From positions 1 through 24,227 of IMG/VR virus record IMGVR_UViG_3300044729_000739: a stretch of 24,227 bases of DNA. The stretch is one strand, 5' to 3'. Positions 3,036 through 11,144 of the stretch are shown here, one piece after another. Positions within the stretch are counted from its first letter, which is position 1. Each line of letters begins with the position of its first letter. The position numbers and the translations under genes were made by a program. Origin of the DNA: a virus. Under the pieces are notes generated by a model. The model worked only from the letters and a program-made list of their open reading frames with translations. It had not been told where the DNA came from and did not search any database.

Positions 3036-3440
3036 ATGTTTCCACTTACCGCGCTGTTTGATGTAGGCATGAAGGTCTTGGATAAATTTATTCCTGACCC
3101 CGAAGCCAAAGCCAAGGCCCAGCAGGAACTTATGCGGCTCCAACAAGAGGGTCGTTTGGCTGAACTGCAAGCCGACAATATTGAGGCCCAAGAGGTCACC
3201 AAGCGACAGCAGTCGGATATGGCAAGCGATAGCTGGTTGTCCAAGAACATTCGTCCCATGACCCTGATTGCTATTTTGGTGGGTTATTTTGTGTTTGCCG
3301 GTATGTCGACCTTTGGTATGAACGCAAACGAGAAGTACGTGGAACTGTTGGGTCAGTGGGGTATGCTGATTATGTCGTTTTACTTTGGCGGCAGGACGCT
3401 GGAAAAGATTATCGATATGAAGGCCAAGAAGGATGCTTGA
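3036..3440 (+). CDS. 3TM-type holin (GTA holin family)
   Basis: 134 aa. The start follows a strong GGGAGGT at 3026-3032. The N-terminal half is an amphipathic and charged region (DVGMKVLDKFIPDPEAKAKA, then a Gln/Glu-rich helix), followed by SKNIRPMTLI and two clear membrane spans (LIAILVGYFVFAGMS and WGMLIMSFYFGGRTL). The phrase of a Pro-rich start, helix, then WLSKNIRPM and the membrane pair is characteristic of the holin_3TM family used by gene transfer agents and many phages. Its stop overlaps the endolysin start by 8 bases, the usual holin-endolysin coupling. Confidence 0.75.
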   Translation: MFPLTALFDVGMKVLDKFIPDPEAKAKAQQELMRLQQEGRLAELQADNIEAQEVTKRQQSDMASDSWLSKNIRPMTLIAILVGYFVFAGMSTFGMNANEKYVELLGQWGMLIMSFYFGGRTLEKIIDMKAKKDA

Positions 3441-4050
3441 ATCGCAGTTATTAGCCTTGGGAATCGACCCTAAATGGACTGAGGCTCTAAACAACGCATT
3501 CAATAAGTATCAAATCAACACCCCCAAGCGCAAAGCCTGCTTTTTAGGCCAATGTATGCATGAATCCGGTGGGTTCAAGTTTATGCGCGAGAACCTTAAT
3601 TATTCTGCCCGCGCTTTGATGGCGACATGGCCAAGCCGGTTCCCTGACGCTGACACTGCCGCAAAATATGAGCGCCAGCCTGAAAAGATAGCCAACAAGG
3701 TTTACGGTGGCCGGATGGGCAATACCGAGGACGGTGATGGCTGGAAGTATATTGGGCGCGGGTTGATTCAATTGACCGGTAAGGATAACTATGCGGCCGC
3801 CAGCGAGGCTTTGGGCGAGGATTTGGTATCTAACCCCCAGCTTGTGGAAGAACCGCGTGTAGCGGCGCTTACAGCCGGCTGGTTTTGGAATAAACGCGGG
3901 TTAAATGAGTTAGCCGACCAAATGGACATCGCCACCATGACCCGAAGAATCAATGGTGGCAATTTAGGGATTGCTGACCGTCAGGAAAAAATCAACAAGG
4001 TGCTGACAATTCTAAGTTCTCAGCCAAACAATCAAAAGGACGAATATTAA
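3433..4050 (+). CDS. Endolysin, glycoside hydrolase family 19
   Basis: 205 aa, one GH19 (chitinase/lysozyme-like) domain that hydrolyses the glycan backbone of peptidoglycan. Visible motifs are QCMHESGGF (residues 40-48, catalytic Glu44), then YIGRGLIQLTGKDNY (106-120), and the downstream TRRINGGNLGIADR block that shapes the substrate cleft. There is no signal peptide, so export must depend on the holins just upstream. The start overlaps the holin stop. The 3' end overlaps the end of a convergent small gene by 39 bases. No spanin pair is recognisable in the window. Confidence 0.92.
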   Translation: MLESQLLALGIDPKWTEALNNAFNKYQINTPKRKACFLGQCMHESGGFKFMRENLNYSARALMATWPSRFPDADTAAKYERQPEKIANKVYGGRMGNTEDGDGWKYIGRGLIQLTGKDNYAAASEALGEDLVSNPQLVEEPRVAALTAGWFWNKRGLNELADQMDIATMTRRINGGNLGIADRQEKINKVLTILSSQPNNQKDEY

Positions 4051-4329: not shown

Positions 4330-4608
4330 TTATCGTGCGGTTACTTTTAAAGTAATCACTGCGGTGGTTTTGGTGTGCTTGGCAATCAATTCTGCTGGGA
4401 TATTAGCCTCGGCAAACACCGCCTTGTTATCCACTACGTTGCGCTGTGAGAGCGTTACGCAGGCCTTGTAAAGGTTACCCTCAATCTTACCCTCAGTTTG
4501 CTTGAGTTCGGCTTTTATGGCCTCTGCTTGTGCCTCTAAATCGGCGATTTGAGCCAACAACATACCTAATTGGTCAACCTTGGTTACTGCGATGTCAATT
4601 ACTTGCAT
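4330..4608 (-). CDS. 92-aa protein with N-terminal coiled coil, unknown
   Basis: Begins MQVIDIAVTKVDQLGMLLAQ. Residues 10-45 form a likely coiled coil rich in Leu, Ala, Glu and Lys (IADLEAQAEAIKAELKQTEG); the C-terminal half is mixed with a beta-like end TTAVITLKVTAR. I recognise no domain. AAAGGA precedes the ATG. It is the first gene after a promoter with -35 TTGCAT and -10 TAAACT, a repressor-type operator in the spacer and a 5'-terminal hairpin, so it is probably expressed early and shut off in lysogens. It has no membrane span, unlike the two genes behind it. Confidence 0.6.
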   Translation of the reverse strand: MQVIDIAVTKVDQLGMLLAQIADLEAQAEAIKAELKQTEGKIEGNLYKACVTLSQRNVVDNKAVFAEANIPAELIAKHTKTTAVITLKVTAR

Positions 4609-4628: not shown

Positions 4629-4643
4629 ACTCCCCAATGGAGT
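4629..4643 (-). promoter_or_regulatory. 5'-terminal mRNA hairpin, copy A
   Basis: On the minus strand the stem ACTCC / GGAGT (5 bp, perfect) closes the loop ATTGG, and the next bases are GAGATAGAAAGGA with the ribosome site. The first A of the stem is base seven after the -10 box, so it is probably the first transcribed base. The same element with different stem bases occurs at 6864-6878 and 7912-7926. Confidence 0.65.
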
Positions 4644-4649
4644 AAGGAC

Positions 4650-4678
4650 AGTTTAGTTAAGAAAACTTAACAATGCAA
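4650..4678 (-). promoter_or_regulatory. Sigma70-type promoter of the 92-aa operon
   Basis: On the minus strand: -35 TTGCAT (4678-4673), 17-base spacer, -10 TAAACT (4655-4650), then a six-base discriminator GTCCTT and the predicted start A at 4643. It directs leftward transcription of the three small genes at 4608-4012. Confidence 0.7.
4657..4670. promoter_or_regulatory. Palindromic operator TTAAG-N4-CTTAA, perfect
   Basis: TTAAG AAAA CTTAA, perfect 5-base arms, lies in the spacer between the -35 and -10 boxes of the leftward promoter, where a bound protein would block RNA polymerase. Matching sites stand at 6888, 6951 and 7884. The 76-aa repressor at 6964 is the best candidate ligand. Confidence 0.6.
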
Positions 4679-4688
4679 GGTATTTTAA

Positions 4689-4703
4689 TAGGGATTTACC
4701 CTA
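4689..4703. other. Small hairpin before the leftward promoter
   Basis: TAGGG ATTTA CCCTA, perfect 5-base arms around a 5-base loop, stands eleven bases from the -35 box of the promoter at 4650-4678. On the minus strand it could help terminate transcription coming from the exonuclease operon, but the following TTAAAATA is not a good T-run. A weaker version occurs at 7852-7864 in the duplicated block. The whole 4705-4855 stretch otherwise holds only doubtful ORFs of 25-28 codons. Confidence 0.35.
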
Positions 4704-4855
4704 GGTTGGGGTCAAGATTTGGCTTTTTGCAACAAATGGGCGGGAAAGCCACAAAACCGCGCAATTTAGGCATCCTCTTGAGGTGGCTTAACAACCCCAG
4801 TACTCTGCCTACTCGGCACGTGAATGGCGCTTTTGGCGCCACCTTTCGGCATTGT

Positions 4856-5623
4856 CTATATGTTATTACGAATCCGGTAAAACTTAAGCAGGCACGAGAA
4901 ACAATCCCACCCCTTTTGGAGGTCTTCTTCCGATACACCCACGACCTTGACCTCGTTGGTGGTGCCGTTGACAAAACAAATGGCCGCATTTGCCTTGGGG
5001 ACACCTAAACCCTGTCGATACGCGGCTAATTGCATGATATGCTCAAAGTACACCTCGGCCTTGTCGAGAGGGGTATCCTTTGTCTTGAAATCGACGACCG
5101 CACCGTCCCACTTCTGATAAAAATCGGCGCGGCTCATCAAATCGCACTTGCCACCAAACCCATCCGGATGTGCAAACGACTTCTCTGAGAGCCACAGACG
5201 GCTCCCAAAGTGGGTGTTTACCGCCTCCTCCACAATCTTGACGTATGGCGGCAATTCCGGAATATACACACCCTCATAAAACGATTGGATGATTGCGTGT
5301 ATGGTCTCACCACGTTCTGCCGCTTTGCGTCCGGTCTCTTTGGAGTCCTGCATGACCCTTGCGAGCCACTCCTGCTCCGGTTCACCGTCAATTCTTGGTA
5401 AGGTCAGCGCGGCTAAGAGGACTTGTTGCTGTTTCCATGTATCAAGGCCTGCTTTTGATAACAGTCCGATAATTGTTGTAACACTTGGCAAAAGTCCAAG
5501 TTTCCGCGCGTCGCGTAGCGTTGTTGCACGCTCGTTCCCATTGGCCCCAACCGTTGTATAGGCTGGACTGCCGTCTTTTGAATACCAGTGTCCACTTTCT
5601 GCCACCTTTTCTTTAACAATCAT
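4856..5623 (-). CDS. PD-(D/E)XK recombination exonuclease (RecB/Cas4-like)
   Basis: 255 aa. Nuclease motifs are in the expected order: GETIHAII with His109, GFGGKCDLM with Asp161, AVVDFKTKD with Asp178 and Lys180, then the QLAAYRQGL helix with Gln198 and Tyr202. Phage enzymes of this type resect double-strand ends to give 3' single strands for annealing or RecA-independent recombination. It lies directly after an SSB-like gene in the same operon, with AAGGAC before its ATG, a pairing seen in many phages where exonuclease and single-strand binding partner act together. No lambda-exo-type annealase is visible in the window. Last gene of the leftward early operon. Confidence 0.82.
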   Translation of the reverse strand: MIVKEKVAESGHWYSKDGSPAYTTVGANGNERATTLRDARKLGLLPSVTTIIGLLSKAGLDTWKQQQVLLAALTLPRIDGEPEQEWLARVMQDSKETGRKAAERGETIHAIIQSFYEGVYIPELPPYVKIVEEAVNTHFGSRLWLSEKSFAHPDGFGGKCDLMSRADFYQKWDGAVVDFKTKDTPLDKAEVYFEHIMQLAAYRQGLGVPKANAAICFVNGTTNEVKVVGVSEEDLQKGWDCFSCLLKFYRIRNNI

Positions 5624-5631
5624 ATTAGTCC

Positions 5632-6243
5632 TTAAAATGGGATTTCGTCATCAGGCATTGGGTTTGCCGCATATTCTTGCTCACGCTTTTGCTTACCGCG
5701 CCACTCAGAAGATTCTGTAATCTTTTCTCTGTAATACTTTGGCAGGGCATCGTACTTGGCTTGGTCAAACTCCTGCAACCAAAAGTGCGTGACCGCGTTA
5801 ATTGGCTCCGGCAGGCTACTGCGCAGGGCTGTTGGCACCGCGCTGATACCGGACACATTCGCGTACTTACCGTCCTCAGAATGCACGACCGAGAGCATAC
5901 AGAACTTGCCCAATAGGTTGCGCACATCAAAGTTCTTCCTGTCTTCGGCGGTCATCTTTTTGCCTGACCATGATTCAAGGTCTTTACGCAGGGTCGATTG
6001 GTCGCCAAGGCTTACGGTGTAACGCTTACTAACGATTAATGGCTTGCCATCATCCGTTAGTAATTTTTCGCCGCTATCGGACTCACCATGCAATTCCCAA
6101 GTAAATACCATCTTGTGCATGATTTTGGTTTCACCTTTCCAATCCACAGACTGGTGGCCAAGGTCAATACACGAATACAGCCTTGCAAGGTGGTTGCCTG
6201 CGGGCGCGATTTTAAAGTCTTTGGTTGTATCTGAAATAATCAT
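5632..6243 (-). CDS. Single-stranded DNA-binding-like protein
   Basis: 203 aa from the ATG at 6243, selected because GAGGA lies five bases before it; a TTG at 6255 would add four residues. The product has a beta-rich N-terminal two-thirds (HLARLYSCIDLGHQ, MVFTWELHGE, KRYTVSLGDQSTLRKDLESW, GKFCMLSVVHSEDGKYANV) that fits an OB-fold phage ssDNA-binding protein and ends in an acidic, hydrophobic tip MPDDEIPF like the protein-recruiting tail of SSBs. It would coat single strands made by the exonuclease encoded next. Its start overlaps the previous gene's end region by spacing only eight bases. Confidence 0.68.
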   Translation of the reverse strand: MIISDTTKDFKIAPAGNHLARLYSCIDLGHQSVDWKGETKIMHKMVFTWELHGESDSGEKLLTDDGKPLIVSKRYTVSLGDQSTLRKDLESWSGKKMTAEDRKNFDVRNLLGKFCMLSVVHSEDGKYANVSGISAVPTALRSSLPEPINAVTHFWLQEFDQAKYDALPKYYREKITESSEWRGKQKREQEYAANPMPDDEIPF

Positions 6244-6251
6244 GACTGTCC

Positions 6252-6635
6252 TCAAAATGGTTCAAATTCTGTTTGTTTGCTGTACCGGTGAACGATGATG
6301 CTGTTGTTTTCGCGGTCAATGGTGGTGGAATAACTGCCTTTGCCCCAGTGGGTTGACATATAGGCACACAGCGAACTGCGTAGCGTTTCCATGTCAAAGT
6401 CTTTAATTGGCACCTCGCCCACCGTATCGTCGGTCATATCTTTAATGAACGGCAAGTAGTGGTTACGCAGGGTTCCCATCGGATAATGCAGTGGCCCACG
6501 TTTTTTGCGCTTGTTATACAAGACCTCAAGGGCGCCATGCTTGTTGCCGTCGCTGTCCACAATGGCATACAGCAAATTGCAGGATTTGAGCATACTGATG
6601 GCTCGTTGCAGGGTTATCTTTTCTACGTTATTCAT
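6252..6635 (-). CDS. Early phage protein, unknown function
   Basis: 127 aa. Begins MNNVEKITLQRAISMLKSCN and contains ILYAIVDSDG-like and RNHYLPFIKDM segments and a C-terminal block STHWGKGSYSTTIDRENNSI. I have seen this pattern as a conserved hypothetical protein in early operons of tailed phages beside SSB and exonuclease genes; it shows no catalytic motif I can name. GGAGGTGTGAA precedes the ATG, and the ATG overlaps the stop of the gene upstream. Role in DNA replication or recombination is inferred from its neighbours only. Confidence 0.6.
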   Translation of the reverse strand: MNNVEKITLQRAISMLKSCNLLYAIVDSDGNKHGALEVLYNKRKKRGPLHYPMGTLRNHYLPFIKDMTDDTVGEVPIKDFDMETLRSSLCAYMSTHWGKGSYSTTIDRENNSIIVHRYSKQTEFEPF

Positions 6636-6841
6636 TTCACACCTCCGTAAGGGTTAAGGTCAGCAAACACTTCACGCAGGAAGTTACGTTGCCGGTCTAC
6701 TGGCGCAAAGCCACAACCATAACGCAGGAGGTCAATTTGCTCTTTAGATAGGTCTGTGCCGCCTTCTAGCACATCAAAGATGCGTTCAAGTTCACCTTGA
6801 AGCTGTAGTAAATCATTGGTTTGCGATTCTATTTCACTCAT
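6632..6841 (-). CDS. First protein of the leftward early operon, unknown
   Basis: 69 aa, mostly helical and acidic: MSEIESQTNDLLQLQGELER, then DVLEGGTDLSKEQIDLLRYG and FADLNPYGGVK. The start at 6841 is preferred over an ATG at 6886 because that earlier codon lies inside the -10 box of the promoter; AAAGGA stands eight bases before 6841. It is the first product of the leftward transcript. No family recognised. In lambda-type phages this position is used for antitermination or regulatory proteins, but nothing here demonstrates that. Confidence 0.6.
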   Translation of the reverse strand: MSEIESQTNDLLQLQGELERIFDVLEGGTDLSKEQIDLLRYGCGFAPVDRQRNFLREVFADLNPYGGVK

Positions 6842-6863
6842 ACGAGTTCCTTTCAAAATATTC

Positions 6864-6878
6864 ACCGGCCAATCCGGT
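6864..6878 (-). promoter_or_regulatory. 5'-terminal mRNA hairpin, copy C
   Basis: On the minus strand ACCGG / CCGGT (perfect 5 bp) closes the loop ATTGG and is followed by GA. The first stem base, 6878, is base seven after the -10 box. Stem bases differ from copies A and B while pairing, loop and position are kept. Confidence 0.65.
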
Positions 6879-6884
6879 AACACC

Positions 6885-6913
6885 ATGTTAAACTATCTTA
6901 ATTCCAAAAGCAA
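6885..6913 (-). promoter_or_regulatory. Leftward early promoter
   Basis: On the minus strand: -35 TTGCTT (6913-6908), 17-base spacer, -10 TAACAT (6890-6885), discriminator GGTGTT, predicted start A at 6878. It reads the recombination operon 6841-4856. A repressor-type operator overlaps the -10 box. Confidence 0.65.
6888..6901. promoter_or_regulatory. Operator, one mismatch to TTAAG-N4-CTTAA
   Basis: TTAAA CTAT CTTAA overlaps the -10 box and spacer of the leftward early promoter. One base of the ten arm bases deviates from the palindrome. Confidence 0.5.
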
Positions 6914-6928
6914 ACTTTATTTGAAATA

Positions 6929-6957
6929 TTGCGGTCACAGCCAAGGTCTGTTAAGAT
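6929..6957 (+). promoter_or_regulatory. Repressor promoter giving a leaderless transcript
   Basis: -35 TTGCGG (6929-6934), 17-base spacer, -10 TAAGAT (6952-6957). The usual start seven bases on is 6964, the A of the repressor ATG, and no ribosome site could fit. It is divergent from the leftward early promoter, with the -35 boxes 15 bases apart. Confidence 0.55.
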
Positions 6958-6964
6958 ACCCTAA
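6951..6964. promoter_or_regulatory. Operator over the repressor's own -10 and start
   Basis: TTAAG ATAC CCTAA, one mismatch to TTAAG-N4-CTTAA, covers the -10 box and the start base of the repressor promoter. Binding here would give negative autoregulation. Confidence 0.5.
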
Positions 6965-7194
6965 TGAATCCAACAGCCATTATTAATATCTTGGGCGGGG
7001 CCACCAAGGTCGCTAAACTCTGCGGAGTTTCGGTACCGGCGGTCTCTATGTGGCAAAAAAGCGATATTCCGCGCGATAAATTAATATTTTTAGCCGCAAC
7101 GCTAGAACGCGAAACCAATGGGCTAATTACCCGCAAAACCCTGTTTCCCACGACTTATGGGGTAATTTGGCCGGAGTTGCACAACAAACAATAA
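6964..7194 (+). CDS. Cro/YdaS-type helix-turn-helix repressor
   Basis: 76 aa. The N-terminal 35 residues hold one helix-turn-helix: helix AIINILG, then GATKVAKLCGVSVPAVSMWQ (12-31) with the recognition helix VPAVSMWQ, then the basic turn KSDIPRDKL. The closing ITRKTLFPTTYGVIWPEL is the common end of YdaS/Cro-like phage regulators, which bind palindromic operators as dimers. It has no LexA-type protease domain, so RecA-driven self-cleavage is not expected. It sits between divergent control sites and probably binds the TTAAG-N4-CTTAA palindromes at 4657, 6888, 6951 and 7884. Its message seems to begin at the ATG itself. Confidence 0.8.
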   Translation: MNPTAIINILGGATKVAKLCGVSVPAVSMWQKSDIPRDKLIFLAATLERETNGLITRKTLFPTTYGVIWPELHNKQ

Positions 7195-7206
7195 TTTGGT
7201 TATACT
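7177..7206 (+). promoter_or_regulatory. Promoter of the 7213-7336 RNA
   Basis: -35 TTGCAC (7177-7182) inside the end of the repressor gene, 18-base spacer, -10 TATACT (7201-7206), discriminator GTGCTT, predicted start 7213. The -10 and discriminator nearly repeat those of the rightward early promoter (TATACT GTGGTT). There is no palindromic operator, so this promoter may stay active when the others are repressed. Confidence 0.6.
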
Positions 7207-7212
7207 GTGCTT

Positions 7213-7336
7213 GCAGATTCGACCCTGTTTAGTGCTAAATCGGAAAAGACCCTTTAGGGTTGCTTTGAGCGTTTAGGTAATGCTACCGATTCATTACTTA
7301 AGCGGGTCGAACTTAGAGCAACCTTAAGGGGTTTTT
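7213..7336 (+). ncRNA. Structured phage small RNA with terminator, candidate
   Basis: No open reading frame. Bases 7245-7269 pair with 7312-7336 over about 25 bp including a few G-U pairs; bases 7270-7282 pair with 7292-7304 over 13 bp; the apical loop is CTACCGATT. The only interruption is a 7-base bulge on the 3' side (7305-7311). The bulge region GGGTCGAA (7304-7311) is a perfect complement of TTCGACCC at 7218-7225, and loop bases CCGATT (7286-7291) complement AATCGG at 7238-7243, so pseudoknots or alternative folds are possible. The 3' end is GGGGTTTTT, a terminator-like end. A promoter lies in front. Function unknown; a regulatory RNA of the lysis-lysogeny switch is plausible. Confidence 0.6.
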
Positions 7337-7343
7337 CTATTTC

Positions 7344-7536
7344 TGCGGTCACAGTTGGGCGGGAACCGACACCAGCGACTGCGATACAAGTGCTACTGGG
7401 GGACAATGGATGTAACAGCACAAAAATAGGTGGCGAAGCTAGTGCCTATTCCATGAACGACTGGCGGGTTCTGTAACTCCGATGGAGCAGATGAAGGCGA
7501 ACCTAGGAGGGCTGGGTTCGTTCACCGAAAGAGCAT
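7344..7536 (+). ncRNA. Structured region before the HNH gene, HEARO/omega-RNA-like candidate
   Basis: A non-coding, GC-richer stretch that ends at the HNH start codon. Pairings seen: GAACC (7363-7367) with GGTTC (7467-7471) and CCAG (7372-7375) with CTGG (7461-7464) closing a multibranch domain; GTGCT (7390-7394) with AGCAC (7417-7421); AATAGG (7425-7430) with CCTATT (7445-7450); CTCC (7477-7480) with GGAG (7484-7487), flanked by CTG with CAG. Alternative pairing of GGTTC with GAACC (7499-7503) is also possible. HEARO RNAs are by definition large structured RNAs just upstream of HNH genes, and many are IscB omega-RNAs; this arrangement matches, but the downstream protein lacks RuvC parts. I did not recognise conserved HEARO sequence with certainty. 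Confidence 0.4.
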
Positions 7537-7851
7537 ATGGAAAAACGATTATTAAAAATAGCTTATAAAAATAAATTAAATAAATTATCTAATAATCAAA
7601 TAGCTATTGTTTTTAAAGCACAATCAAAAAACTTTTTAAATTCAAAAGAATGGCGCGATTTGCGTCAAAAAGCATTAAAACTTTATGGGTCAGCTTGTAA
7701 ATATTGCGGTGCAACTAAAAATATTAACGTAGACCATATATTGCCACGCAAGTTTTACCCTGAACTTGCTTTGGACATAAACAATCTTCAGCCCTTATGT
7801 GCGCCATGCAACAAGAAAAAAGGCAACAAAGTGCAAAAAAAACAACACTAA
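7537..7851 (+). CDS. HNH homing-type endonuclease
   Basis: 104 aa. The core is a zinc-supported HNH fold: FLNSKEWRDLRQKALKLYG, then CKYCG (Cys54, Cys57), INVDHILPRK (Asp66, His67), NNLQPLCAPCNKKKG (Asn83, Cys88, Cys91, Asn92). Basic ends flank it. The gene is visibly richer in A and T than its neighbours and stands alone between two control regions, both signs of a mobile free-standing endonuclease. It follows a structured RNA-like region with no gap, and its stop codon coincides with the left edge of the duplicated promoter block. No clear ribosome site precedes the ATG; GGAGGG at 7506-7511 is too far for normal use unless RNA folding brings it closer. Confidence 0.82.
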   Translation: MEKRLLKIAYKNKLNKLSNNQIAIVFKAQSKNFLNSKEWRDLRQKALKLYGSACKYCGATKNINVDHILPRKFYPELALDINNLQPLCAPCNKKKGNKVQKKQH

Positions 7852-7875
7852 GGGTAAATACCTACAAAATAAATG

Positions 7876-7905
7876 TTGCATTATTAAGATTCCTTAACTT
7901 ATACT
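7876..7905 (+). promoter_or_regulatory. Rightward early promoter
   Basis: -35 TTGCAT (7876-7881), 18-base spacer, -10 TATACT (7900-7905), discriminator GTGGTT, predicted start A at 7912. It reads the early genes from 7948 towards RusA and the methyltransferase. Confidence 0.7.
7884..7897. promoter_or_regulatory. Palindromic operator TTAAG-N4-CTTAA, perfect
   Basis: TTAAG ATTC CTTAA, perfect arms, in the spacer of the rightward early promoter, the same place as the site at 4657-4670 in its promoter. Confidence 0.6.
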
Positions 7906-7911
7906 GTGGTT

Positions 7912-7926
7912 ACTGCATAGGGCAGT
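7912..7926 (+). promoter_or_regulatory. 5'-terminal mRNA hairpin, copy B
   Basis: ACTGC / GCAGT (perfect 5 bp) closes the loop ATAGG and is followed by GAGATAGAAAAGGAG. Compared with copy A, one C-G pair is replaced by G-C (ACTCC/GGAGT to ACTGC/GCAGT), a compensatory double change. The stem begins at the predicted first transcribed base. Confidence 0.65.
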
Positions 7927-7947: not shown

Positions 7948-8235
7948 ATGTACGACCAAAAAGCACTTAAAGCCGCAATTGCAATCAGAAACGCAATGTA
8001 CAAAAACCCAGCTTGGCACGTTGGCCGCCATAGCGATGGTACCCCAGCACTTGACATTGATATGATGAACCGCGAATTAGAGGGCGGTCTTATTGATGGC
8101 TGGCTTGGCATTAAAGAGGTTGAGGCTTGCACCCTTTCACAGTGGTCTTGCGCGATGGATTGGTTGATTTCACAAGAGCGCAATGCTCATTGCGATTCTG
8201 ACCGTTTTGACTACACCAACAAGTACGACCGATAA
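7948..8235 (+). CDS. First protein of the rightward early operon, unknown
   Basis: 95 aa beginning MYDQKALKAAIAIRNAMYKN, with a central acidic helix DIDMMNRELEGGLIDGWLG and a Trp/Cys-containing end (CTLSQWSCAMDWLISQ). A strong AAAAGGAG stands seven bases before the ATG. Directly behind the early promoter, operator and 5' hairpin, it should be among the first proteins made after infection. No membrane span and no recognised domain. Its mixed acidic composition would suit an inhibitor or DNA mimic, but that is a guess. Confidence 0.65.
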   Translation: MYDQKALKAAIAIRNAMYKNPAWHVGRHSDGTPALDIDMMNRELEGGLIDGWLGIKEVEACTLSQWSCAMDWLISQERNAHCDSDRFDYTNKYDR

Positions 8236-8811: not shown

Positions 8812-9164
8812 TGAACGCATACGAAATGGCAGATGAATTGCTAAGAGATAACACTCAATTAACTGTAAAAGCGGCATATATGTTGCGCCAACAAGCAAAC
8901 CGCATAGTAGAGTTGGAAAAAGAACTGTATTTTAAAAATTACTATGAAGAATTGCCTGATGCACCAGTTGGAATTATTGGCAAAATTGGCGATAGCCCAA
9001 TACATGACTTAGTCCACAGAACCACACCACAAATAAAAGAGTTAAGTGATGAGGAAATTATTAAAATCGCTAACTATTGTTCATCCGCAACAGCGTGGCA
9101 TGGCCCTGATTTAGACCCTATTAAATTTGCTAAAGCAATACTAAAAAAAGCGAGTGAGAAATGA
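8811..9164 (+). CDS. Early phage hypothetical protein
   Basis: 117 aa from the ATG at 8811 (TAATG overlap). N-terminal helices MADELLRDNTQLTVKAAYML and RQQANRIVELEKELYF form a likely coiled coil, followed by a loop-rich middle and a C-terminal module ELSDEEIIKIANYC with FAKAILKKASEK. The SDEEI...IA...FAKAI module is common at the ends of phage early hypothetical proteins. No catalytic residues recognised. Its stop overlaps the next ATG by four bases. Confidence 0.65.
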   Translation: MNAYEMADELLRDNTQLTVKAAYMLRQQANRIVELEKELYFKNYYEELPDAPVGIIGKIGDSPIHDLVHRTTPQIKELSDEEIIKIANYCSSATAWHGPDLDPIKFAKAILKKASEK

Positions 9165-9538
9165 CATTTGAGGCTTTCTATTTCATGTACCCGCGAAAAA
9201 TTGGTAAGCGTGCGGCAGAAAAGTCGTGGAACCGTTTAACTAAGGACGAACAGCAGGAGGCTTTGGCCGCGTTGCCTAACCACCTTGCATATTGGAAGTT
9301 CAAGCAAACCGAAAAAGACTACATTTGCCACCCCGCCACTTGGTTAAACCAAGGTCGCTGGGAGGACGAATTAGAGTTTGAGAAGGCTAAAAAGCCGGAA
9401 TTGCCTTGGTATAGCACCAACGACCTCACGCTTAAAAAGGCCGCCGAGGTTGGTGTCAACCCATACGCTGGTGAGGATTGGCCACAGTTACGCGCCCGCA
9501 TCAGCGCACAGATGAAACGGTTGGAAGAGCAAATGTGA
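9161..9538 (+). CDS. Replication-protein-like C-terminal domain protein
   Basis: 125 aa. YFMYPRKIGKRAAEKSWNRL near the N-terminus and YICHPATWLNQGRWEDEL around residues 54-71 are the hallmark pair found at the C-terminal end of many phage replication-initiation (O-like/DnaT-like) proteins. Here that module is the whole protein; no N-terminal winged helix is present. It may recruit host helicase loading machinery or bind single-stranded DNA. The next gene starts with GTG overlapping this stop (GTGA). Confidence 0.65.
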   Translation: MTFEAFYFMYPRKIGKRAAEKSWNRLTKDEQQEALAALPNHLAYWKFKQTEKDYICHPATWLNQGRWEDELEFEKAKKPELPWYSTNDLTLKKAAEVGVNPYAGEDWPQLRARISAQMKRLEEQM

Positions 9539-10526: not shown

Positions 10527-10791
10527 ACAGGAACGGCAACATAATCAAAAAATGGCATCCATCGGGTGCATTCTTTGTGCGCATCTCGGCTACACCGAGT
10601 CGCCAGCCGAACTTCACCATATACGAAATGGAAGTACTCGAAGAAGTGACGCGCCTGTTATCCCCCTCTGCCCTAATCACCATCGATTTCCACCCGATGG
10701 ATTTCACCACTTGGGTCGGAAAGCATTTGAGCGCAAGTTTGGACTCACCCAAGAGCATTTACTACAAATGGCATTGGAAAAACTGTGTTGA
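10516..10791 (+). CDS. Ref-like (RecA-dependent) HNH nuclease
   Basis: 91 aa from the ATG at 10516, which overlaps the previous gene by 11 bases. GCILCAHLGY (Cys18, Cys21), ELHHIRNGSTRRSDAPVIPL (His34, His35) and LCPNHHRFPPDGFHHLG (Cys52, His55, His56) form a zinc-stabilised HNH site, and the end has KFGLTQEHLL. This is the pattern of the P1 Ref family, nucleases that cut DNA in RecA-bound displacement loops, or close relatives. It is a shorter stand-alone form. It probably works with RusA, whose GTG start overlaps this stop. Confidence 0.7.
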   Translation: MASKQERQHNQKMASIGCILCAHLGYTESPAELHHIRNGSTRRSDAPVIPLCPNHHRFPPDGFHHLGRKAFERKFGLTQEHLLQMALEKLC

Positions 10792-11144
10792 TATTGTCAC
10801 TCCCACTGCCGCCATCTGTGAATCATTATTGGGGGAGCCTCGGCACAAGAAGGTTCGTAAGCAAAGCCGGCAAAGAGTTCAAACTCAAAGTGCAGGAATA
10901 TGTGCTGGAATACAAAGTCCCGAAATTGGGAACCGCCCGCCTGCAAATGACGGTGACATTGCACCCCCGCGACAAGCGTAAGCAGGACATTGACAATCGA
11001 ATCAAGGCTTTATGGGATGCGTTGGCTGATGCCGGTGTATTTGATAACGACGAGCAAATTGATGTTTTGATGGTGCAACGCGGTGCAATCATAAAAGGTG
11101 GCGCTTGCCGCGTGGAAATCGAGGTTTTAGATGCTTGTGAATAA
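10785..11144 (+). CDS. rusA: RusA-type Holliday junction resolvase
   Basis: 119 aa. PLPPSVNHYW at the N-terminus and DKRKQDIDNRIKALWDALAD with Asp68, Asp70 and Lys74, then VFDNDEQID with Asp89, are the catalytic and structural signatures of RusA. The enzyme resolves four-way junctions made during recombination and before packaging. The start is GTG at 10785, with overlap of the preceding stop by seven bases and GGAAAA upstream. The methyltransferase start lies inside its 3' end. Confidence 0.9.
   Translation: MLILSLPLPPSVNHYWGSLGTRRFVSKAGKEFKLKVQEYVLEYKVPKLGTARLQMTVTLHPRDKRKQDIDNRIKALWDALADAGVFDNDEQIDVLMVQRGAIIKGGACRVEIEVLDACE

Follow-up and report, generated by a model that had tools for sequence, protein, structure and literature searches.

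A covarying 5'-terminal hairpin at the predicted start of early transcripts in a phage family

Hairpins at the early promoters of the window

We analysed a 24,227-bp virus contig (IMG/VR record IMGVR_UViG_3300044729_000739, positions 1 to 24,227; "the window" is this whole stretch) and found that each of its three early promoters is followed by a short inverted repeat that would place an RNA stem-loop at the very 5' end of the transcript. That this leader is an RNA structure is well supported. The analysis shows its anatomy, the covariation of its stem, its fixed distance from the −10 hexamer, its spread through a phage family and its independence from the next gene. As to function, we give a probability of about 0.5 to the proposal that the 5'-terminal stem, lying at the predicted start, would hinder the entry of RppH and RNase E and thus act as a stabiliser of the ompA type.

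The three hairpins, A, B and C (Table 1), each consist of a perfect 5-bp stem whose first base is the seventh base past the −10 hexamer, and each is followed by GA. The pattern ACNNNATWGGNNNGTGA matched the whole window three times, at these hairpins, and 0 times when the window was read backwards. A covariance model run with its filters off also matched A, B and C only, with E-values of 3.5e-7, 1.4e-6 and 1e-4 that are rough, the rows of the model being mostly relatives with the window's three copies included. The chance of a perfect 5-bp stem at the composition of the window is about 1e-3, and that of three at given places about 1e-9, a post hoc estimate that becomes about 1e-7 if the size of the loop is left free. 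A preliminary description of this DNA had reported the three hairpins and considered their agreement unlikely by chance; its coordinates were exact. In the predicted folding of the window leaders the 5' hairpin forms, with −5.7 to −7 kcal/mol, and the ribosome-binding site stays open. An Rfam scan of the window found no described RNA family at the hairpin leaders, its sole match (RF02932) lying elsewhere. A palindrome, TTAAG-N4-CTTAA, overlaps all three promoters, imperfectly at B, and is probably the operator of the 76-aa P22-Cro/YdaS-like repressor encoded nearby, a link that we infer.

Pairing, position and distribution in related phages

A search with the exonuclease gathered 80 related contigs, and the strict motif had 54 matches in such contigs. 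With relaxed criteria, 206 candidates linked to the operator were obtained, comprising about 40 different hairpins and a few chance matches; the stems of the relatives are of 4–6 bp and the loops mostly of 4–6 nt. When near-complete close relatives were scanned with the covariance model, most had exactly three matches, with a weak fourth in two, and a 29.7-kb relative record had one, at a locus near the contig end. We then compared pairing with shuffled controls. In alignment A2 (38 distinct leaders), 95.3% of the pair cells were standard (67.4% in shuffles, 0 of 500 of which reached the observed value), the covariation score was 0.62 as compared with 0.12, and slid registers paired at 28–43%. 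A second set, alignment A3, was paired at 92.8% (68.4% shuffled) with a covariation of 0.474 (0.10 shuffled); it is made mostly of contigs outside the building of the model, yet its rows were aligned by fitting them to the model, which biases the set in that direction. In A2 both partners of pairs 3, 4 and 5 vary, and pairs 3 and 4 are unbroken in all 88 distinct rows of the two alignments. On the exonuclease tree the 5' arm changed at least 19 times at A, at least 18 at B and at least 9 at C, although recombination between phages could reduce the number of separate events. G-U wobbles are present at pairs 4 and 5 (e.g. ACGGT...GCCGT and ACGGC...GTCGT), and the loop is asymmetric and always stands in the sense of transcription. 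The wobbles, together with loops of 4–6 nt, point to RNA and not to a DNA operator. Loss of pairing in homologous phages had been set beforehand as the observation that would count against the proposed 5' hairpin; instead, pairing is conserved and compensatory changes occur in many homologues. Stems that vary and still pair were thus confirmed, whereas the loop, described as fixed, is not strictly so: copy C differs, and the relatives vary in loop size.

The alignments and the first scans were chosen around an AC...GT frame, and three checks are less biased. A DNA-pattern scan of IMG/VR that was blind to pairing returned 65 matches bearing a promoter, as judged by inspection, and 65 of these 65 have a stem of at least 4 bp; so do 4 of the 35 remaining matches. 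When promoters were picked by operator, −35 and −10 alone, 91 of 116 had the hairpin at +1, where the signal peaks; most of those without it are explained by the palindromic operator being read on its reverse strand, by contigs that are unrelated, by a misread −10 or by leaderless C sites (as in L127). Finally, an IMG/VR scan without the operator requirement found promoter-linked hairpins only beside the operator of this family, and its five operator-free matches looked like chance.

The hairpin keeps a fixed place relative to the −10. The gap between the −10 and the stem is 6 nt in 190 of the 206 relaxed-scan matches, which puts the first base of the stem at the expected +1, itself predicted from the −10; the matches with other gaps are mostly chance matches or misread −10 boxes. 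The distance from the hairpin to the start codon, for its part, is variable, and the genes that directly follow the hairpin leaders of sites A and C are of more than 30 unrelated kinds. Loops within one genome are not matched: those of A and B agree in 5 of 32 cases (3.2 by permutation), and A, B and C agree no more than by chance. So many unrelated first genes and such unmatched loops suggest a generic role at the 5' end.

A second clade (L084 and L094–L100), whose nuclease is about 51% identical to that of the window, has promoters of the same build. Most of its members carry ATGGC-AATAAC-GCCAT at site C, a hairpin in which the second pair is exchanged too (C-G to T-A) and the AC...GUGA frame is missing; site B reads (A)CTAGC-AATCAA-GCTAG(T). 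The site C hairpin is lost in L094. Relatives in bacterial genomes (L087–L093, nuclease 40–51% identical) have no such hairpins, and the scan found no promoter-linked hairpin in two distant exonuclease relatives in other phages (L085 and L086). No hairpin was found in 401 genomes of the family of a Limnohabitans metagenome-assembled genome, a scan with stricter filters and no positive control genome; when 399 genomes from the order were searched for the exonuclease, only that Limnohabitans assembly matched. The term "phage-specific" used at the outset therefore applies at the level of the family, as promoter hairpins occurred only alongside its operator in the IMG/VR scan and in none of the 401 bacterial genomes.

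Possible functions of the leader

We favour a generic function of the 5' end over a site for a sequence-specific RNA-binding protein or a boxB- or put-like antitermination site. Each of the three early transcripts would open with a 4–6 bp stem-loop preceded by 0 or 1 unpaired base, and this stem would be a regular component of the cassette found at early promoters, which runs −35, repressor operator, −10, six bases, hairpin. With the 5' triphosphate tucked into a duplex, the host pyrophosphohydrolase RppH and the 5'-sensor of RNase E would be unable to initiate decay; the stem might also hold the short leader away from the ribosome-binding site, with which it could otherwise pair. RppH and RNase E need single-stranded 5' ends, 5' secondary structure stabilises messages, and bla mRNA is stabilised by an appended 5' hairpin (PMC3997798). 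As in the ompA and papA stem-loops of E. coli (PMC3997798), the stem begins no more than one base from the predicted 5' end, its pairing is kept over its letters, and the ribosome-binding site of the window leaders is open. In contrast to these, the phage leader is a short 15-nt module that recurs at every early promoter across a phage family, at a fixed distance from the −10 and with many unrelated genes behind it; that it stabilises, we infer. Of the two functions put forward in the preliminary description, the cap-like stabiliser is the best supported, whereas the landing site for a sequence-specific RNA-binding protein fits poorly with loops that are unmatched within one phage.

Several observations weigh against a stabiliser. 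Clade 1 shows no variation in its outer pairs (A-U and C-G) or in the next G, and +6 is nearly always A; these letters exceed a purely structural need, and shared descent or a start-site preference could be the cause, the AC...GT framing of the scans itself favouring such invariance. With about −3 kcal/mol at 37 °C, stems of four bases are weak, and in the second clade the site A hairpin is weak or lost. Protection of the 5' end would not require the additional AC...GTGA hairpin that lies further inside some B leaders: it follows the first and is close to the ribosome-binding site in L044, L050, L071, L065, L067, L124, L135 and L140, and in L044 both hairpins can pair into one long stem.

There is an outside chance that a host or phage RNA-binding protein uses the hairpin to control the translation or stability of early messages. 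Clade 1 does keep the AC...GUGA frame and A as the first loop base, some B leaders have a second, tandem copy, and the translational operator of T4 gp43 is likewise a leader hairpin on an early phage message (PMC3014915). However, stem and loop letters vary freely, site C of the second clade is without the frame, and genes of more than 30 unrelated kinds follow the leaders, whereas the T4 case concerns one gene and conserved loop bases bound by the product of that gene. A protein binding a fixed loop was rejected, the loops of one genome being unmatched. An outside chance, too, is that the minimal hairpin is a structure-only tag on the early transcripts of the phage that RNA polymerase or a host RNA-binding factor would read; elongation might then be modified or ribosomes recruited, for example, and the tag would be a phage analogue of the cap that sets the leaderless repressor message apart. 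It is doubtful that the hairpin is an antitermination or polymerase-modification site, that is, a minimal boxB- or put-like element read by structure that lets polymerase pass terminators. The 5-bp stem and 5-nt loop of the phage hairpin resemble lambda boxB, and in this P22-like phage the hairpin stands on both the PL-like transcript for recombination and the PR-like one for replication. It differs from the lambda and P22 nut boxB in lying at +1 and not inside the leader; moreover, ATTGG is not a boxB-type loop, stem and loop vary among A, B and C within a genome, no leader has an exact boxA (GCTCTTTA) on its transcribed strand (degenerate boxA was not searched), and PHROGs and Pfam recognised no N-type antiterminator gene, N proteins being short and divergent. 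We thus rejected a lambda-type nut site: there is no exact boxA, and the loops (ATTGG, ATGT, AATAAC etc.) are not a single GNRA-like class and are mixed within genomes. The put RNA of HK022 is also a cis-acting structure of early transcripts, with putL just downstream of PL, but it is of about 70 nt with two stem-loops and binds the zinc-binding domain of the polymerase beta' subunit (PMC9378689). The phage leader is far smaller, a single stem-loop of 13–16 nt with two only in some B leaders, and site A heads one small gene.

It seems improbable that the hairpin is a mere insulator of translation, holding the leader apart from the ribosome-binding site or the coding region, with which it might pair. 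The open ribosome-binding site of the folded window leaders and the generic use across genes would suit this, but the anchor is the −10 and not the start codon, and an insulator need not begin at +1. Inverted repeats at promoters are usually operators, and the dyad might be bound as duplex DNA by a second regulator. We consider this very unlikely and rejected it on the G-U pairs, the arm spacing varying from 4 to 6 nt, the mirrored stem changes and the roughly 40 stems and loops; besides, the asymmetric loop keeps to the sense of transcription, and TTAAG-N4-CTTAA, which is probably the real operator, is constant in sequence. That chance or common descent alone produced the pairing, without selection, is hardly credible. 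The copies do share a promoter cassette, and some of their likeness is inherited; yet double stem changes occurred in many lineages, pairs 3 and 4 hold in 88 rows, and the tree gives at least 46 arm changes (fewer as separate events if phages recombined). The covariation in A2 and A3 and the hairpins at promoters picked blind to them refute this reading. An intrinsic terminator or attenuator was also discarded, as no U run follows the stem (GAGATAGAAA, GATAACAGG etc. come next); a terminator scan gave one weak terminator-like match, at B only, within shuffle expectation. Finally, the SAS and ESAS elements of cluster K mycobacteriophages (PMC3203893, PMC11373665) are similar in that one phage group repeats a leader or promoter cassette ahead of small genes of many unrelated kinds, and in that the promoter contains an inverted repeat. 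SAS, though, consists of 13 conserved bp at the start codon, and ESAS is an inverted repeat in the DNA surrounding the promoter, likewise conserved, whereas here the stem letters vary and the anchor is the transcription start.

Stabilisation by a 5'-terminal stem is known from single bacterial messages; here such a stem is kept in early promoters through dozens of stem changes. Our literature search, which left most subscription journals outside, found no earlier description of a phage lineage with a 5' stem at its early promoters. Whether phages need to evade RppH is little studied, and for T4 the role of RppH was listed as not yet investigated (PMC3014915); the family is a natural set of re-paired variants for testing that question, and so short and portable a leader could serve gene expression.

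Genes, phage identity and neighbouring elements

Table 1. Hairpins, promoters and associated genes of the window
Feature	Position	Strand	Description
Hairpin A	4629..4643	-	ACTCC-ATTGG-GGAGT; predicted +1 at 4643; kept in relatives
Hairpin B	6864..6878	-	ACCGG-ATTGG-CCGGT; predicted +1 at 6878
Hairpin C	7912..7926	+	ACTGC-ATAGG-GCAGT; predicted +1 at 7912
Promoter A	4650..4678	-	−35 TTGCAT 4673-4678; −10 TAAACT 4650-4655; operator-like TTAAGTTTTCTTAA 4657-4670; operator-promoter conserved
Promoter B	6885..6913	-	−35 TTGCTT 6908-6913; −10 TAACAT 6885-6890; operator-like TTAAGATAGTTTAA 6888-6901
Promoter C	7876..7905	+	−35 TTGCAT 7876-7881; −10 TATACT 7900-7905; operator-like TTAAGATTCCTTAA 7884-7897
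First gene of transcript A	4330..4608	-	92 aa; no Pfam/PHROGs match
Operon B, PL-like recombination operon	4856..6841	-	69-aa MSEIES protein (6841-6632), 127-aa protein, 207-aa protein (phrog_862), PD-(D/E)XK exonuclease (5623-4856)
First gene of transcript C	7948..8235	+	95 aa; heads PR-like operon
PR-like operon, downstream genes		+	Replication-initiation-like protein 9161-9538; RusA 10785-11144
P22-Cro/YdaS-like repressor, 76 aa	6952..7194	+	Gene 6964-7194; predicted leaderless; −10 TAAGAT 6952-6957; ATG 6964

The leader of site A heads a single small gene. At B, a mechanical open reading frame (6632-6886) begins within the −10, and the start codon lies past the Shine-Dalgarno sequence, at about 6841. 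The ATG of the repressor gene is the seventh base after its −10, and in nearly all of 142 repressor genes of relatives the −10 sits 5–9 nt before the ATG (6 nt in the window); the repressor message is thus predicted to be leaderless in the window and in nearly all 142 family members. The window also encodes a terminase, a large portal protein and an endolysin. No close relative of the window was found among the phage records searched. The exonuclease-repressor region is shared by a distant relative, MW202674, whose annotation describes a podovirus with a portal and a coat that are P22-like, and we use the label "P22-like" because of this annotation and of a PHROGs match to the portal. These freshwater phages form a family that is widespread and, so far, uncultured.

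Throughout the family, many unrelated small proteins are swapped as the first gene at sites A and C, which resemble cargo slots behind a constant promoter-hairpin cassette. At the C sites of L083 (near 580, minus strand) and L127 (near 4291, minus strand), the start codon of a small membrane-like protein lies at or near +1 and replaces the hairpin leader. A DNA palindrome, AGGG-N5-CCCT, is found about 60 bases upstream of the start (window positions ~4690-4702, minus strand, and ~7852-7864, plus strand); it was counted at 33 of 106 A sites and 35 of 71 C sites across the relatives but never at B, and it is possibly an activator site. In L143 a tRNA-Asn gene (3435-3510, minus strand) lies just upstream of a hairpin promoter. 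The RF02932 "Betaproteobacteria-1" RNA of the window (7348-7469, plus strand) lies between the repressor gene and an HNH endonuclease gene (7537-7851, plus strand). It recurs near site C in 3 of the 11 relatives scanned (L026 3738-3860, L056 4395-4516 and L079 3123-3244), and its presence hints at a betaproteobacterial host.

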